Assembly: GCA_039679645.1 (NCBI GenBank) | Contig: JBDKUO010000024.1 | Location: 1-60,229 of the forward strand | Source: Armatimonadota bacterium | GTDB taxonomy: Bacteria > Armatimonadota > UBA5829 | DNA: 60,229 nt | Direction of reading: 5' to 3' | Shown here: piece after piece, positions 15,352 through 19,396 of the stretch | How the letters are laid out: each line of letters begins with the position of its first letter | How positions within the stretch are numbered: position 1 is the stretch's first letter | Position numbers and translations under genes: made by a program | Notes under the pieces: generated by a model | Told to the model about the DNA's origin: nothing | The model's database searches: none | What the model saw: the letters and a program-made list of their open reading frames with translations, nothing else

Positions 15352-16302
15352 ATGAGCATTATATACGGTTTGGACAATGTAAGGAGTGAGCAGCATGGGC
15401 GTGCGGTTGCAATAGGGGTATTCGACGGCGTCCACTGGGGCCATCGGGCAATCTTTGAGCGGCTGGTACAAGTGGCAGGCGAGCGTGGAATTAGGAGCGC
15501 TGCGCTAACATTCGACAAACACCCTGCTGAAATTCTTGCGCCCACTCGCGCCCCGCAATATATAAACAGCCTCGACCAAAGGATAGAACTCATAGAAGCC
15601 CTGGGAGTCGAGGAGGTAATAGTAGCGGAGTTTGACCACAGACTCGCGAACCTGACGCGTGAAGACTTTGTCGACTCAATACTCCTGGAAAAGCTGCATA
15701 CTAAACAGGTTGTGGTTGGCTCGAATTTCAGATTCGGCAAAGACCGCGCGGGTGATATTCGTTACCTTAACGAGATTTCGGAAGATATTGGTATCGGAAT
15801 CACTGCGGTTTCCGCCGTAATTGTTGACGGAGGACCTGCAAGCAGCACTCGCATTCGCGCGTTCATATCTCGGGGCGACATGGAGGAGGCTGCGAAACTC
15901 CTCGGCAGACGGTTTGCGCTGCGCGGCGATGTGGTTAAAGGAGAACAGATCGGTCGCACACTCGGCTTCCCGACAGCCAACATAAGAACAGCCCCGCGTC
16001 AAATTATCCCCGCACGCGGTGTATATGCAGTTGAATCATCTATTTCTAATACCACTTACAGTGGAGTATGTAATATTGGCCGCAGGCCGACATTCGGCGG
16101 CGACACCACCACTATTGAAGTGCATTTTTCCGACTTCATTGGTGACCTCTATGGAAAAAAACTGGATATAGCCTTCTGCCGACGCCTGCGCGATGAGATG
16201 ACTTTTGAAAGCCCAGAAAAACTGGTAGAACAGATCAGAATAGATATAGAGAAAGCCAGTGGGACGTCAATAACAGAATTTGACACTACCCATCTCCGCT
16301 GA
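15352..16302 (+). CDS. ribF: Bifunctional riboflavin kinase / FAD synthetase
   Basis: A 316-residue enzyme that makes FMN from riboflavin and then FAD. The N-terminal adenylyltransferase half has GVFDGVHWGHRAIF (HxGH nucleotide site) and STRIRAFISRGD. The C-terminal kinase half has LGFPTANI (PTAN motif) and GVCNIGRRPTFGG. The start is ATG 15352, with GAGGGG 4 bases upstream. The open frame extends back to 15217 but that part (rich in Cys and Pro, overlapping a hairpin region) does not look coding. No FMN riboswitch was found in the 240 bases upstream. Confidence 0.92.
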   Translation: MSIIYGLDNVRSEQHGRAVAIGVFDGVHWGHRAIFERLVQVAGERGIRSAALTFDKHPAEILAPTRAPQYINSLDQRIELIEALGVEEVIVAEFDHRLANLTREDFVDSILLEKLHTKQVVVGSNFRFGKDRAGDIRYLNEISEDIGIGITAVSAVIVDGGPASSTRIRAFISRGDMEEAAKLLGRRFALRGDVVKGEQIGRTLGFPTANIRTAPRQIIPARGVYAVESSISNTTYSGVCNIGRRPTFGGDTTTIEVHFSDFIGDLYGKKLDIAFCRRLRDEMTFESPEKLVEQIRIDIEKASGTSITEFDTTHLR

Positions 16303-16342
16303 TATACTCACTTTACGCATGCTTGCAAAAGGAGGACGTGAA

Positions 16343-16450
16343 ATGAATATGGCGCTGTCTTTAGCCGGAATCAATAACGCCGCTGATTTTGTGCACACTA
16401 CCCTGCGCACAAATAGTAGCGCACGTCCCCCGGAGCAGCGGCTTATTTAG
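16343..16450 (+). CDS. 35-residue leader-type ORF upstream of an attenuator-like terminator
   Basis: A short frame (MNMALSLAGINNAADF..EQRLI) with a near-perfect Shine-Dalgarno site, AAAGGAGG (16328-16335), 7 bases before ATG. It stops at 16448-16450, just 25 bases before a strong terminator, and its own last third (16428-16442) can pair with the 5' arm and loop of that terminator. There is no run of one codon type; Arg, Pro and Thr occur near the end (TTLRTNSSARPPEQR). It may be a leader peptide controlling the downstream methyltransferase, or an independent small protein. Confidence 0.55.
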   Translation: MNMALSLAGINNAADFVHTTLRTNSSARPPEQRLI

Positions 16451-16495
16451 TAATAAACATCTAAACCAGCAATTCAAAGGCCGCTTCTTCCGGGG
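16428..16495 (+). promoter_or_regulatory. Possible anti-terminator pairing
   Basis: CCCCGGA (16428-16434) is complementary to TCCGGGG (16489-16495) and GCGGC (16438-16442) to GCCGC (16480-16484). Together they form a 12-14 bp interrupted helix that would consume the 5' arm of the terminator at 16476-16509. Confidence 0.45.
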
Positions 16496-16509
16496 AAGCG
16501 GCCTTTTTT
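16476..16509 (+). terminator. Strong intrinsic terminator before the methyltransferase gene
   Basis: AAAGGCCGCTTC (16476-16487) pairs perfectly over 12 bp with GAAGCGGCCTTT (16495-16506) around the 7-base loop TTCCGGG, followed by a run of T. It lies between the 35-residue ORF and the methyltransferase start at 16541. Confidence 0.92.
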
Positions 16510-16540
16510 TGATCAACCAAAAGCAGAGGAGAAGACAAAA

Positions 16541-17323
16541 ATGTATCTGTACGATGAAGTGCATGCAGCCTACTACGATCTCACCTCGACCGGCCTCGTG
16601 GGTGATGTGGAGTTCTATGTCGATGAGGCAACTAGGACCGGCGGTCCGGTTCTTGAACTCGGCGCAGGGACCGGAAGGACTCTCATCCCGATAGCTGAAG
16701 CCGGAGTTGAGATTGTAGGGCTGGATAACTCCTCCGCAATGCTTGCGGTTGCGCGCGAGAAGATATCGGCTCTTTCTGAGCAGGCGCAAAGCAGGATCAG
16801 GTTAGTCGAGGGAGATATGCGAAGCTTTTCACTGGATCAGAAGTTTAAGCTCGTGACGATTCCATTCCGAGCGTTTCAGCACATACTTACCCCTGAAGAC
16901 CAGCGCGCAGCCTTGAAGTGCATTCGTGAGCATATGGTGGATAATGGCAAGCTTATATTTAATACATTCGATGTGCGTTTCCATACTGTTGCCGAACACA
17001 TGGGCACCCTTGGCGGCGCGGTAAAGAAGCTTAAAGAGTTTTCACATCCGGACACGGGCAATCGTGTAATTGTTTGGGACACCCGCAGCTATGATGTCGA
17101 AAATCAACTGGTTGAGCAGGATTTCATATATGAAGAACTCGACGCACAAGGCAAGGCAGTGGATAGGATCTACAACAAATTGTCTCTCCGCTGGGCTTAT
17201 AGGTATGAAATGCAATACCTGCTTGAACTCTGTGGGTTCAAAGTTGAAGCTTTATATGGCGACTGTATGCGCGGGACGTTTAAATATGGAGGTGAGCAGG
17301 TATGGATTGTGAGAAAGAGCTGA
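16541..17323 (+). CDS. Class I SAM-dependent methyltransferase
   Basis: A 260-residue methyltransferase. Motif I is VLELGAGTGRTLIPIAEAG, followed by IVGLDNSSAML (motif II) and LVEGDMRSFSLDQKF. The remainder, with VDRIYNKLSLRWAYRYEM and LLELCGFKVEALYGD, matches the Methyltransf_25 kind whose substrate is usually unknown. GCAGAGGAGAAG provides a Shine-Dalgarno site. It follows the terminator by 31 bases and overlaps the acetyltransferase gene by 22 bases, so expression of both would depend on read-through or an unseen promoter. Confidence 0.82.
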   Translation: MYLYDEVHAAYYDLTSTGLVGDVEFYVDEATRTGGPVLELGAGTGRTLIPIAEAGVEIVGLDNSSAMLAVAREKISALSEQAQSRIRLVEGDMRSFSLDQKFKLVTIPFRAFQHILTPEDQRAALKCIREHMVDNGKLIFNTFDVRFHTVAEHMGTLGGAVKKLKEFSHPDTGNRVIVWDTRSYDVENQLVEQDFIYEELDAQGKAVDRIYNKLSLRWAYRYEMQYLLELCGFKVEALYGDCMRGTFKYGGEQVWIVRKS

Positions 17324-17820
17324 GGGATGTTGTATCTATCAGGCGGATCGCACAATCGGAGATAGATGAAAGCGCACGGGTAATCCGCGAGAGCTTCGCA
17401 ACCGTGGCACTGGAATTCGGCATCACTGAGGAGAACTGCCCCACACATCCGGCTTTCATTACACGGATTTCGCTTGATGAAATGCTAAGATCGGGGATAG
17501 AGCTGCATGGATTATTTATCTATGGGTGCCAGGTAGGAGCAGTCACGATAGAAAATGTCGGCGAAAATGCCTATTACCTCGGCAAATTAGCGATTTTGCC
17601 CGATTTCAGACGTCGTGGTTTGGGTGATATTCTTGTCGGGTTTGCAATTGACAACGTGAAAGCGCGAGGCGCAACTCTGCTCAAACTCGCAACAGTTGAT
17701 AAGGCTACCAGGCTTAAGAATTGGTATAAGGGCTTTGGTTTTGTTGAGACGGGCACTAAGAAATTCGATCATATGCCGTTTACTGTATGTTTTATGCAGA
17801 AAAGACTGACTGAGGAATAG
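17302..17820 (+). CDS. GNAT-family N-acetyltransferase
   Basis: A 172-residue acetyl-CoA-dependent acetyltransferase. The acetyl-CoA site is LAILPDFRRRGLGDILVGFA (the R-x-x-G-x-G loop), followed by a LKLATVDKATRLKNWYKGFGF C-terminal segment with the usual F-GF turn, seen here as NWYKGFGFVETGT. TGGAGGTGAG lies within the end of the methyltransferase gene upstream of the ATG, so the two are translationally coupled. The substrate is unknown; pairing with a methyltransferase suggests small-molecule modification. Confidence 0.8.
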   Translation: MDCEKELRDVVSIRRIAQSEIDESARVIRESFATVALEFGITEENCPTHPAFITRISLDEMLRSGIELHGLFIYGCQVGAVTIENVGENAYYLGKLAILPDFRRRGLGDILVGFAIDNVKARGATLLKLATVDKATRLKNWYKGFGFVETGTKKFDHMPFTVCFMQKRLTEE

Positions 17821-17880
17821 TTTATCAAATTGCCGGGTGTCTTCTATATTGCATCAGAGGCGTGATTCAGACTAGGCCTC

Positions 17881-18020
17881 TAGAAGGAGGTGGGTGAATT
17901 GATTAAAAGCCTATCACCCGCCCCGGGAGCAGGGCGCCGGTAGTGGCTACCCGGAAAATTGCTCTTTAGGCCGCCGGAGCCGCACAGCCCCGGCGGCTAG
18001 AAAAAATTATAAAAATTTTT
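17881..18020 (+). other. Structured intergenic RNA-like region
   Basis: Three hairpins follow one another: GGGTGA with TCACCC (about 17893-17928), a nested hairpin with outer GAGCA/TGCTC and inner CCGGTAG/CTACCCGG, and GCCGCCGG (17970-17977) with CCGGCGGC (17990-17997). An A-tract and a T-tract follow. It matches no riboswitch or housekeeping RNA I recognise. The 530-base gap between 17820 and 18351 is otherwise filled by two tiny ORFs and one promoter. Confidence 0.4.
17899..17943 (+). CDS. 14-codon ORF with strong ribosome site
   Basis: TTG start with AAGGAGGT at 17884-17891, encoding MIKSLSPAPGAGRR. It lies inside the structured region, so it may be a leader peptide or chance. Too short to judge on composition. 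Confidence 0.25.
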   Translation: MIKSLSPAPGAGRR

Positions 18021-18049
18021 TGCTGCATCTTTAGCAAACCTGCTATAAT
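18020..18049 (+). promoter_or_regulatory. Extended -10 promoter upstream of the small ORF and sigma gene
   Basis: TGCTATAAT (hexamer 18044-18049) is a perfect -10 with a TGn extension. TTGCTG (18020-18025) stands 18 bases upstream. Predicted start near 18056, after which GATGGTGG (18066-18073) and CCGCCATC can form a leader hairpin. Confidence 0.6.
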
Positions 18050-18103
18050 GTGCGATAATGCTAATGATGGTGGGCAATTAACCGCCATCTGAGGATAATA
18101 ACT

Positions 18104-18235
18104 ATGAGCTATTTAATCTACCGAAAGGAGGCACAATTGATGATGCGCATGTTTACTAATTACATGTCGCACTGCCCGATTGTCGTCGGCAGTACGCACC
18201 AGAAGCCTCGTTTCGGCAGCAAGTGGAAGTTCTGA
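18104..18235 (+). CDS. Small basic protein of 31-43 residues
   Basis: An in-frame ATG at 18104 (GAGGA 8 bases upstream) gives 43 residues; a second ATG at 18140 has the better site AAAGGAGG and gives 31 residues (MMRMFTNYMSHCPIVVG..). The C-terminus is strongly basic (HQKPRFGSKWKF). It follows an extended -10 promoter and precedes the sigma factor gene by about 145 bases. No family recognised. It could be a real small protein or a leader peptide. Confidence 0.5.
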   Translation: MSYLIYRKEAQLMMRMFTNYMSHCPIVVGSTHQKPRFGSKWKF

Positions 18236-18380
18236 GAAGGTTCGTTTAGTTTCCTTCCAGGCTCTTACCTGGAGGAAAAATACCCCTCCTTAGTCTCTTC
18301 CAGACGCTGCCGAGCGATGGCACTATCGCTGTACCTGTAAGTTCCTGTTCTTGATTTACGTTTGGAGGAGACACCCCAAG
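18236..18380 (+). other. Leader with alternative hairpins before the sigma factor
   Basis: TTCCTTCCAGG can pair with CCTGGAGGAA (about 18251-18277). The same GGAGG can instead pair with the CCTCC a few bases later, so the two folds exclude each other. AGCGAT/ATCGCT forms a further 6-bp hairpin near 18315-18332. The sigma gene ribosome site GGAGGAG is at 18364-18370. Confidence 0.35.
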
Positions 18381-18908
18381 ATGAACGCCTGTATATCACG
18401 GGCGCGCGAGGGTGACCAGTTAGCAAAGAGAAAGCTGGTCGAGGCCCTGCGCCCTAGAATAGCAAAAATGGCCGCATATTATGGTCGCATATGTTCGGAA
18501 GACCCTGATGATCTGCTGCAGGAGGCATGGCTGGGCCTGCTGGAGGCTCTTCCTGAGATCGACCTGAGGATCGGGACTCCTGAGCAGTATCTGATCGCCC
18601 GCGCAAGGTGGAAGCTGTTGGATGCGGTAAAGCGCGCCAAAGTGCGCCGGTGCAGTTCGCTTGAGGATGCCCCGGTCGAAACCATAGCCTCAGAGAGCGA
18701 CACGGCGATGTCATTCGCTTGTGTTTCTGAGTTTGTGGGGGAGTTGAAGGCAACCCAGCGCGAGGTGCTCGACTGCCTGCTTGCGGGGCTCACGTGGCGT
18801 GAGGCTGGTGAAAAGCTGGGATGCGCATCCGCTAACATTGCTTATCACGTGCGTCAGATCAGGCGGCGATATGAGGAATGGTCAGAGGAACCGGCATGCA
18901 TGATATAA
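18381..18908 (+). CDS. Sigma-70 family RNA polymerase sigma factor (ECF-like size)
   Basis: A 175-residue protein with sigma region 2 (about residues 10-90, with DPDDLLQEAWLGLLEALPEI and RARWKLLDAVKRAKVRR) and a sigma region 4 helix-turn-helix (about 128-165, LKATQREVLDCLLAGLTWRE then AGEKLGCASANIAYHVRQI). This two-domain layout and length fit ECF-type sigma factors. ATG 18381 was chosen with GGAGGAG about 10 bases upstream. No anti-sigma gene is adjacent. Its stop overlaps the start region of the acetyltransferase. It is preceded by an unusual structured leader with small ORFs, so its level may be controlled after initiation. Confidence 0.8.
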   Translation: MNACISRAREGDQLAKRKLVEALRPRIAKMAAYYGRICSEDPDDLLQEAWLGLLEALPEIDLRIGTPEQYLIARARWKLLDAVKRAKVRRCSSLEDAPVETIASESDTAMSFACVSEFVGELKATQREVLDCLLAGLTWREAGEKLGCASANIAYHVRQIRRRYEEWSEEPACMI

Positions 18909-19396
18909 TCAACTCGATGGATTATATAATACGCCAGGCGAAAATTGACGATTTCGATCAGCTCTCGGAAGTCTTTCGAGAACTCGACCACCTTCATGCG
19001 GATGCGCTTCCGCAGGTGTTTTACAGGCTGGATGAACAGGTCAGGTCTCGTGAAAGCATCGAGAATGCAATCGAGTCCGACAACTTGATCATCCTGGTGG
19101 CTGAGTGCAACGGGCAAATTGTCGGGTTAATTAATGCAGCAAATAGAGAAAGCCCTGCTTTTCCGGGGATGGTTCGCCGTAAATACACCTGGATCGAAAA
19201 TATAGGCATAAAGAGTGAGTTTCGAGGGATGGGGATCGGTCGAGCATTAATGAAATGCGTAGAAGATTGGTCCCTTGAACTCGGGTGCGACCGGTGTGAA
19301 CTCAATGTATGGGAGTTCAACACCGGTGCAATTGACTTTTATGAAGAGCTTGGCTATGAACCCGCCAGCAGGCGGATGTGGAAAAAGCTCAAGTAA
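18896..19396 (+). CDS. GNAT-family N-acetyltransferase
   Basis: A 166-residue acetyltransferase with the usual opening MDYIIRQAKIDDFDQLSEVF, the central VAECNGQIVGLINA, the acetyl-CoA loop FRGMGIGRALM and the ending LNVWEFNTGAIDFYEELGYE. Two starts are credible. ATG 18896 has GAGGAA 6 bases upstream and overlaps the sigma gene. ATG 18917 matches the family start better; a TATAAT at 18904-18909 would place transcription at that A, making a leaderless message. Sequence alone does not settle this. Cotranscription with the sigma factor is likely. Confidence 0.82.
   Translation: MHDIINSMDYIIRQAKIDDFDQLSEVFRELDHLHADALPQVFYRLDEQVRSRESIENAIESDNLIILVAECNGQIVGLINAANRESPAFPGMVRRKYTWIENIGIKSEFRGMGIGRALMKCVEDWSLELGCDRCELNVWEFNTGAIDFYEELGYEPASRRMWKKLK

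Follow-up and report, generated by a model that had tools for sequence, protein, structure and literature searches.

What does a leader sense that carries a 35-codon open reading frame (ORF) and an intrinsic terminator in front of a methyltransferase gene and an acetyltransferase gene? The leader in question lies in a stretch of 60,229 nucleotides from an Armatimonadota bacterium (contig JBDKUO010000024.1 of assembly GCA_039679645.1), called the window in the following. A preliminary description of the locus had proposed translation-coupled attenuation, and had pointed to stalling of the ribosome by a drug or a metabolite as the possible signal.

Judged from comparative sequence analysis, we consider it probable that the region 16280-16515 acts as an attenuator of the trp type, mediated by the ribosome and responding to the charging of tRNA-Thr, that it controls the methyltransferase-acetyltransferase operon, and that this arrangement arose from an older one (leader-thrS2-GNAT) by replacement of thrS2. 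The parts of this reading differ in strength. The identity of the leader as an attenuator is well supported by the comparisons, and so is, in the relatives, threonine as the inherited signal, which for the window itself is probable.

Transcription would start just before the leader. When Thr-tRNA is plentiful, the translating ribosome would reach the stop codon (16448-16450) and cover the antiterminator strand, whereupon the terminator would form and the transcript end near 16510. When Thr-tRNA is short, through threonine starvation or an inhibited threonyl-tRNA synthetase (ThrRS), the ribosome would stall at ACT ACC .. ACA (16397-16411), and strand 3 (16430-16442) would stay accessible and base-pair with the terminator 5' arm once this has been made, so that the polymerase could read into both genes. 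Such a switch would probably serve to protect the cell against a factor that reduces the charging of tRNA-Thr.

Elements of the leader and their conservation

The strong ribosome site and the 35-codon ORF that had been reported are present, with AGGAGG 7 bases upstream of the ATG (Table 1). The terminator with its U-run is also there, but its stem has 14 pairs and not 12. In agreement with the statement that the terminator precedes the methyltransferase gene with no clear promoter between them, the stretch 16510-16541 was free of promoter-like sites in the promoter scan; both operon genes thus seem to depend on read-through. Two elements had been missed in the preliminary description: the promoter-like site at 16280-16308, which stands directly upstream of the leader and is the best match of the 4-kb region, and the complementarity of the leader Shine-Dalgarno (SD) region at 16331-16340 to positions 16422-16431. 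The numbers of promoter-like sites (8 versus 4.8 expected) and of terminator-like sites (4 versus 3.8 expected) in the 4-kb region were not above chance; the significance of the leader parts comes from their conservation and not from these scans.

Table 1. Features of the leader and the operon genes in the window (G003 and G004 are two genomes of the same genus).
Feature	Position	Strand	Remarks
Promoter-like site	16280..16308	+	TTGACA-17-TATACT, TG before -10 (extended -10), 11/12; overlaps ribF end
Leader SD region, GGAGGACGTG	16331..16340	+	Complementary to 16422-16431
Leader ORF, 35 codons, MNMALSLAGINNAADFVHTTLRTNSSARPPEQRLI	16343..16450	+	ORF listing, homologue comparison
Hairpin with tandem Thr codons in loop, candidate pause hairpin	16388..16413	+	Paired in three genomes
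Tandem Thr codons ACT ACC	16397..16402	+	Third Thr codon ACA at 16409-16411
Anti-SD strand, CACGTCCCCC	16422..16431	+	Complementary to leader SD
Antiterminator strand (strand 3), CCGGAGCAGCGGC	16430..16442	+	At ORF end
Intrinsic terminator	16476..16510	+	Stem 16476-16506, 14 pairs, then U-run
Strand 4, terminator 5' arm and loop	16479..16493	+	Also pairs with strand 3
Class I SAM-dependent methyltransferase, CorZ homologue	16541..17323	+	Own ribosome site; occupies the thrS2 place of relatives
GNAT acetyltransferase	17302..17820	+	Pfam; its orthologue follows thrS2 in G003 and G004

A nucleotide search of 291 Armatimonadota genomes gave full-length matches to the leader in the window genome and in two genomes of the same genus only (G004 and G003), with 75-78% identity to the leader of the window and E values of 1e-34 or better. 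Matches of any kind at E 0.1 were found in 27 genomes, and those in the other 24 were short. With a covariance model the same three leaders were recovered from the 291 genomes at E below 1e-47, and nothing else scored better than 4e-4; among 19 weaker rows five were inspected, four of which resemble terminators in unrelated places, while the fifth (L160, from G005) is a different leader-like ORF. This last locus, at about 1501-1605 on the minus strand, has a TTGACA promoter, a strong ribosome site and a mini-ORF ending in RGDRRG, followed by a terminator, and is reminiscent of the mini-ORF ending in PAPGAGRR.

Promoter, ORF and terminator are all kept in G004 and G003, where the promoter elements likewise stand upstream of the leader. 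The surroundings differ: the leader follows ribF in the window, and is found by argB in G004 and by cdsA in G003 (argB and cdsA were named from translations). It is absent downstream of ribF in the three same-family plus-strand loci that were read (L033, L039 and L041); this comparison comprised 19 ribF loci, including that of the window, and the distribution of the leader rests on the leader-wide searches instead. As an observation on ribF itself, the last ~10 residues of the window copy (16265-16302) are encoded by the leader promoter region, and the ribF of G004, the closest relative, ends differently. The differing ends suggest a recombination joint.

Alternative pairings of the leader RNA

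The leader RNA (16315-16515, 201 bases) gave a more stable fold than 200 of 200 dinucleotide shuffles (z -3.99). As first described, the end of the ORF can pair in two blocks with the 5' arm and loop of the terminator (16430-16442 with 16479-16493), and when the last 48 bases of the window ORF were shuffled, 4 of 1000 dinucleotide shuffles paired equally well with the terminator arm. Antiterminator complementarity was found in five of five leaders from two phyla, namely the three above and two from Latescibacterota (L134 and G316); the numbers of shuffles as good, per 1000, were 4 for the window, 0 for G004, 0 for G003, 16 for L134 and 6 for G316. The antiterminator sequences differ between the two phyla. 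Within the genus, the alignment shows a paired change: CCGGA:UCCGG in the window and G003 corresponds to CCUGA:UCAGG in G004. Loss of the alternative pairing in homologues and an independent promoter at 16510-16541 had been named as results that could refute attenuation, and neither was found; ORF, antiterminator and terminator are retained together in four related leaders, which supports the translation-coupled attenuation originally suggested.

The effect of ribosome position was predicted by masking folds. With a ribosome at the stop codon, the expected number of pairs between strands 3 and 4 was 0.00 in the window, 0.00 in G004, 0.01 in G003 and 0.29 in L134. With one ribosome stalled at the Thr codons and a second one initiating, the expected pairs were 11.0, 11.8 and 11.9 (of 13) in the window, G004 and G003, respectively, and 7.8 (of 9) in L134. 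A stalled ribosome alone was insufficient for the antiterminator in G004 (0.47 expected pairs). In G316 the stop-codon mask also abolished the antiterminator; under the stalled mask, however, the end of the ORF is paired in the minimum-energy fold with bases further upstream and not with the terminator arm, which speaks against the model in that leader. In the folds with no ribosome, strand 3 was predicted to pair with strand 4 in the window, G003 and L134; G004 was the exception. In equilibrium folding the full terminator was more stable in nearly every state, and the switch would therefore have to be kinetic.

Two further structures lie upstream. The stem formed by the SD and anti-SD strands has 9 pairs and is identical in all three genomes of the genus, hence no covariation is possible; it may block re-initiation after the first ribosome has passed. 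The hairpin that holds the Thr codons (16388-16413) is paired in the three genomes despite different sequence, with 2 pairs changed on both sides, and the count of covarying pairs on the three sequences was not beyond that of shuffles (112/500).

Such a strong fold, together with the invariant SD:anti-SD stem, could also be expected of a riboswitch or of a leader bound by a protein, with no role for the ORF. We regard this as very improbable. No Rfam family was found in the leader at gathering score, the best sub-threshold ones being mostly terminator look-alikes, and a T-box riboswitch was missing from the matches at gathering score and from the permissive list as well. Furthermore, the alignment gaps within the ORF are multiples of three (12, 3 and 3 bases, versus 1-2 bases outside the ORF), and the Latescibacterota leaders, by inspection, have no such SD:anti-SD stem yet have kept a Thr-rich ORF. 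The differences by codon position (4,6,6 and 11,7,10) showed no third-base excess, and the leader peptide itself is thus not visibly selected.

Threonine codons and a second threonyl-tRNA synthetase

The leader had been described as lacking a run of one amino acid. For the window sequence alone this is fair, as Thr is not enriched (3/34, p 0.21; Asn 4/34, p 0.025), but ACT ACC .. ACA is present and the leaders of the relatives are Thr-rich (13/64, p 7e-6, and 15/100, p 7e-5). Over the five leaders Thr is the most enriched residue (31/198, p 4.6e-9); in the Latescibacterota pair it is second to His by fold enrichment. ACT ACC is also found in G004, and ACT ACT ACC in G003. The Thr cluster begins 51 bases before the stop codon in the window, G004 and L134, and 54 bases before it in G003.

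Since the window leader is down to 3 Thr codons, versus 6 and 7 in its relatives, shows no Thr enrichment and precedes an output gene no longer concerned with threonine, the attenuator could have been inherited and have lost its threonine specificity when thrS2 was replaced, so that read-through would now be low and constant, or would respond to slow translation in general. We find this unlikely, because the window leader retains the tandem ACT ACC, the third Thr codon, the surrounding hairpin, the antiterminator and a distance of 51 bases to the stop codon, and because two regulatory codons suffice for the function of E. coli trpL.

The gene that follows the leader in G003 and G004 encodes a second ThrRS of 483 residues (ThrRS2, gene thrS2), and a normal bacterial ThrRS is encoded elsewhere in both genomes. 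The window genome (G000), on the other hand, has the housekeeping ThrRS only, and the methyltransferase gene stands directly behind the leader instead. ThrRS2 matches PRK03991, which we take to be the archaeal-type ThrRS model, from 147 to 612 of 613, with the N-terminal domain missing. It is in this N-terminal domain that the special editing domain of archaeal ThrRS sits. Archaeal ThrRSs carry such an editing domain according to the available text of PMC4389257. The product of thrS2 would thus be an auxiliary, archaeal-type ThrRS without editing domain.

An alignment scan for ThrRS2 in 84,980 species genomes gave 14 loci, one of which is that of G003. Twelve of the other 13 are full-length archaeal-type enzymes and one, from Latescibacterota (L134), is truncated; a search of 64 Latescibacterota genomes added one more genome with a truncated ThrRS2 (G316), and in viral contigs no ThrRS2 was found. 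The leader ORF of L134 has 51 codons with 9 Thr and ends in ..HHMTSTTSHTSPPAVHPSET, and is followed by a terminator and then by thrS2. The leader ORF of G316 also has 51 codons (..HHHTMTSTHQTRRLAGALLE), with 6 Thr. The thrS2 gene of G316 (L149) is without about its first 122 codons in its contig, by deletion or as a pseudogene, or through an assembly error. The 12 full-length archaeal-type thrS loci have no Thr-rich upstream ORF, and the four truncated ones (two from Armatimonadota and two from Latescibacterota) all have one. The rule behind this count, at least 5 Thr and at least 12% in 122-400 bases upstream per locus, was applied to the 12 full-length loci and L134, and G316 (6/51) would fall narrowly below 12% by it.

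As the leader precedes a ThrRS and is rich in Thr codons in the relatives, the ancestral signal was most likely uncharged tRNA-Thr and not a ribosome-stalling drug. The signal suggested in the preliminary description, stalling induced by a drug or metabolite as in erm- or cat-like leaders, could be placed for example at the R-P-P-E codons: RPPE(Q/K)R is retained in the three Armatimonadota leaders, and strand 3 would be freed by a ribosome halted well upstream. However, the RPPE codons coincide with the anti-SD and antiterminator strands, so that their conservation is explained by RNA pairing, and a ribosome stalled at them would cover strand 3 and favor termination. In addition to the Thr-rich leaders before ThrRS, a score of 20.9 bits with the Erm model (cut-off 212) shows that the methyltransferase is no Erm, and we hold drug-induced stalling to be quite improbable as the driver of read-through. 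Erm-type translation attenuation was rejected on the same score and on account of the terminator that intervenes between leader and methyltransferase.

Where the human enzyme has Q460 and A592, ThrRS2 has Met and Ser (from an alignment, positions counted by hand), as is typical of the archaeal enzymes, and the housekeeping ThrRSs of G000, G003 and G001 retain Gln and Ala at these borrelidin-contact positions. Exactly these Met and Ser changes are named in the available part of PMC4389257 as contributing to the resistance of archaeal ThrRS to borrelidin. The position of E. coli L489 was uninformative, with Asp in ThrRS2 but Glu in the housekeeping enzymes.

Another Thr-rich ORF, MYLVSQPTTNFTNTKTAIFSLRKGRVIDGEET, was observed in G003 (L064, 1705-1803), between the terminator and thrS2 and overlapping the thrS2 start. 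The window methyltransferase begins with the same ATGTATCT at the place of this second Thr-rich ORF.

The operon genes and known attenuators

The window and the G003 contig match at 67-77% identity in the leader (16328-16533) and again at 17365-18909, but not in the methyltransferase stretch. The simplest history would be that a leader-thrS2-GNAT arrangement came first and that an N-methyltransferase-like gene replaced thrS2 in the window lineage. The window GNAT is 58% identical to the GNAT of G003 and 54% to that of G004. The methyltransferase gene starts about 30 bases past the terminator and overlaps the GNAT gene. Homologues of the methyltransferase were found in 40 of the 41 genomes searched (best 38% identity, from another family), with no GNAT beside them at the six loci whose ORFs were listed. 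GNAT homologues at E 1e-10 occur in 15 of 291 genomes, and no ThrRS2 stands beside the 12 outside the window genome, G003 and G004. Defense-system models gave generic methyltransferase-domain matches only.

Among proteins of solved structure, the methyltransferase matches CorZ best, at near full length (PDB 9sot/9sov, 205 bits); CorZ belongs to a biarylitide RiPP pathway. The daptide methyltransferase model reached 116.6 bits, below its cut-off of 175. In the CorZ step of that pathway, according to the available text of PMC12951456, the cyclic peptide myxarylin is methylated at its N-terminus. With such homologues, the 35-residue ORF might be thought to be a RiPP precursor or small-protein gene with a terminator of its own, and the methyltransferase and acetyltransferase to be tailoring enzymes. 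This is extremely improbable: the same ORF stands before a ThrRS in the relatives, and the operon genes would be left without a promoter. A biarylitide cluster was rejected, as no cytochrome P450 is present in the genome and no MxYxH mini-ORF in the window.

Two more short ORFs were observed downstream of the operon. The first (17871-17966; TTG start, 17899-17943; LIKSLSPAPGAGRR) has a strong ribosome site and an SD region complementary to the codons after it, and MTKLTPAPGAGRR is seen by eye in G003. The first 96 bases of 17871-17966 are 96% identical in G004, far above the surroundings, though ~66 kb from the GNAT operon there. The other (18140-18235, MMRMFTNYMSHCPIVVGSTHQKPRFGSKWKF with AAAGGAGG) is conserved in G003 and G004 and lies upstream of a sigma-70-like gene (18380-18908); it could represent a further leader or encode a small protein.

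N-methyltransferases and acetyltransferases are both able to modify amines. The attenuator tuned to charged tRNA-Thr, combined with this gene pair, suggests that the methyltransferase and the GNAT may inactivate a compound which bears an amine and reduces Thr-tRNA charging. A broader reading, which we put forward tentatively and consider possible if somewhat unlikely, is that of a modular inducible defense cassette against ThrRS inhibitors, with a fixed Thr sensor, a fixed acetyltransferase and an exchangeable middle gene: a resistant archaeal-type ThrRS for target replacement, or an N-methyltransferase for modification of the inhibitor. The sensor of such a cassette would detect the damage (uncharged tRNA-Thr) and not the drug, and any payload that relieves the damage could be plugged in. 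Should the threonine response be real in the window genome, the exchange of genes would tell the purpose of the operon, the shared threat being low Thr-tRNA charging, against which some species replace the target and another modifies the small molecule; the leader could then serve as bait for natural ThrRS inhibitors and for enzymes that modify them.

Leader-peptide attenuators are best known from amino-acid biosynthesis in Proteobacteria and Actinobacteria. The ribosome-mediated attenuators of amino-acid operons of the E. coli trpL, hisL and thrL type share with the present leader a short ORF with regulatory codons, an antiterminator over the ORF end, a terminator and a single upstream promoter. 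Those attenuators, however, precede biosynthetic operons, whereas here a methyltransferase-acetyltransferase pair follows and, in the relatives, an auxiliary ThrRS; moreover, the leader SD here pairs with the strand adjoining the antiterminator. Vecchione and Sello are said to have described in 2010 that TrpRS1, the auxiliary indolmycin-resistant tryptophanyl enzyme of Streptomyces coelicolor, is under ribosome-mediated attenuation. In G003, G004 and L134 a second synthetase of inhibitor-resistant type likewise stands behind a leader with cognate codons, but with threonine for tryptophan, an archaeal-type enzyme and other phyla, and in the window the synthetase itself has been swapped out.

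In bacilli, histidine leader peptides precede hisS paralogues and hisZ (available text of PMC2965389), which similarly places a leader peptide before duplicated aminoacyl-tRNA synthetase genes outside Proteobacteria, but with histidine, in Firmicutes and with no swapped output gene. Before its own finding in Firmicutes, that article (2010) knew, in the same text, of no leader-peptide attenuators outside Proteobacteria and Actinobacteria. A second ThrRS that escapes inhibitors is known from ObaO, an extra, obafluorin-resistant ThrRS (PMC10619133), and from the borrelidin-resistant archaeal ThrRS (PMC4389257), and thrS2 resembles these with its archaeal-type Met and Ser; in contrast to our leaders, no leader-peptide control is described in the available parts of these two articles, and the window is without the enzyme. 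A literature search whose coverage leaves out most subscription journals gave no description of such a Thr attenuator, and none for Armatimonadota. Attenuators of this kind are known, while we are not aware of earlier examples with threonine, in these phyla or with a swapped output gene: in Armatimonadota and Latescibacterota an auxiliary ThrRS would be under leader-peptide attenuation, and one such leader would have been re-used, or kept, before an unrelated enzyme.
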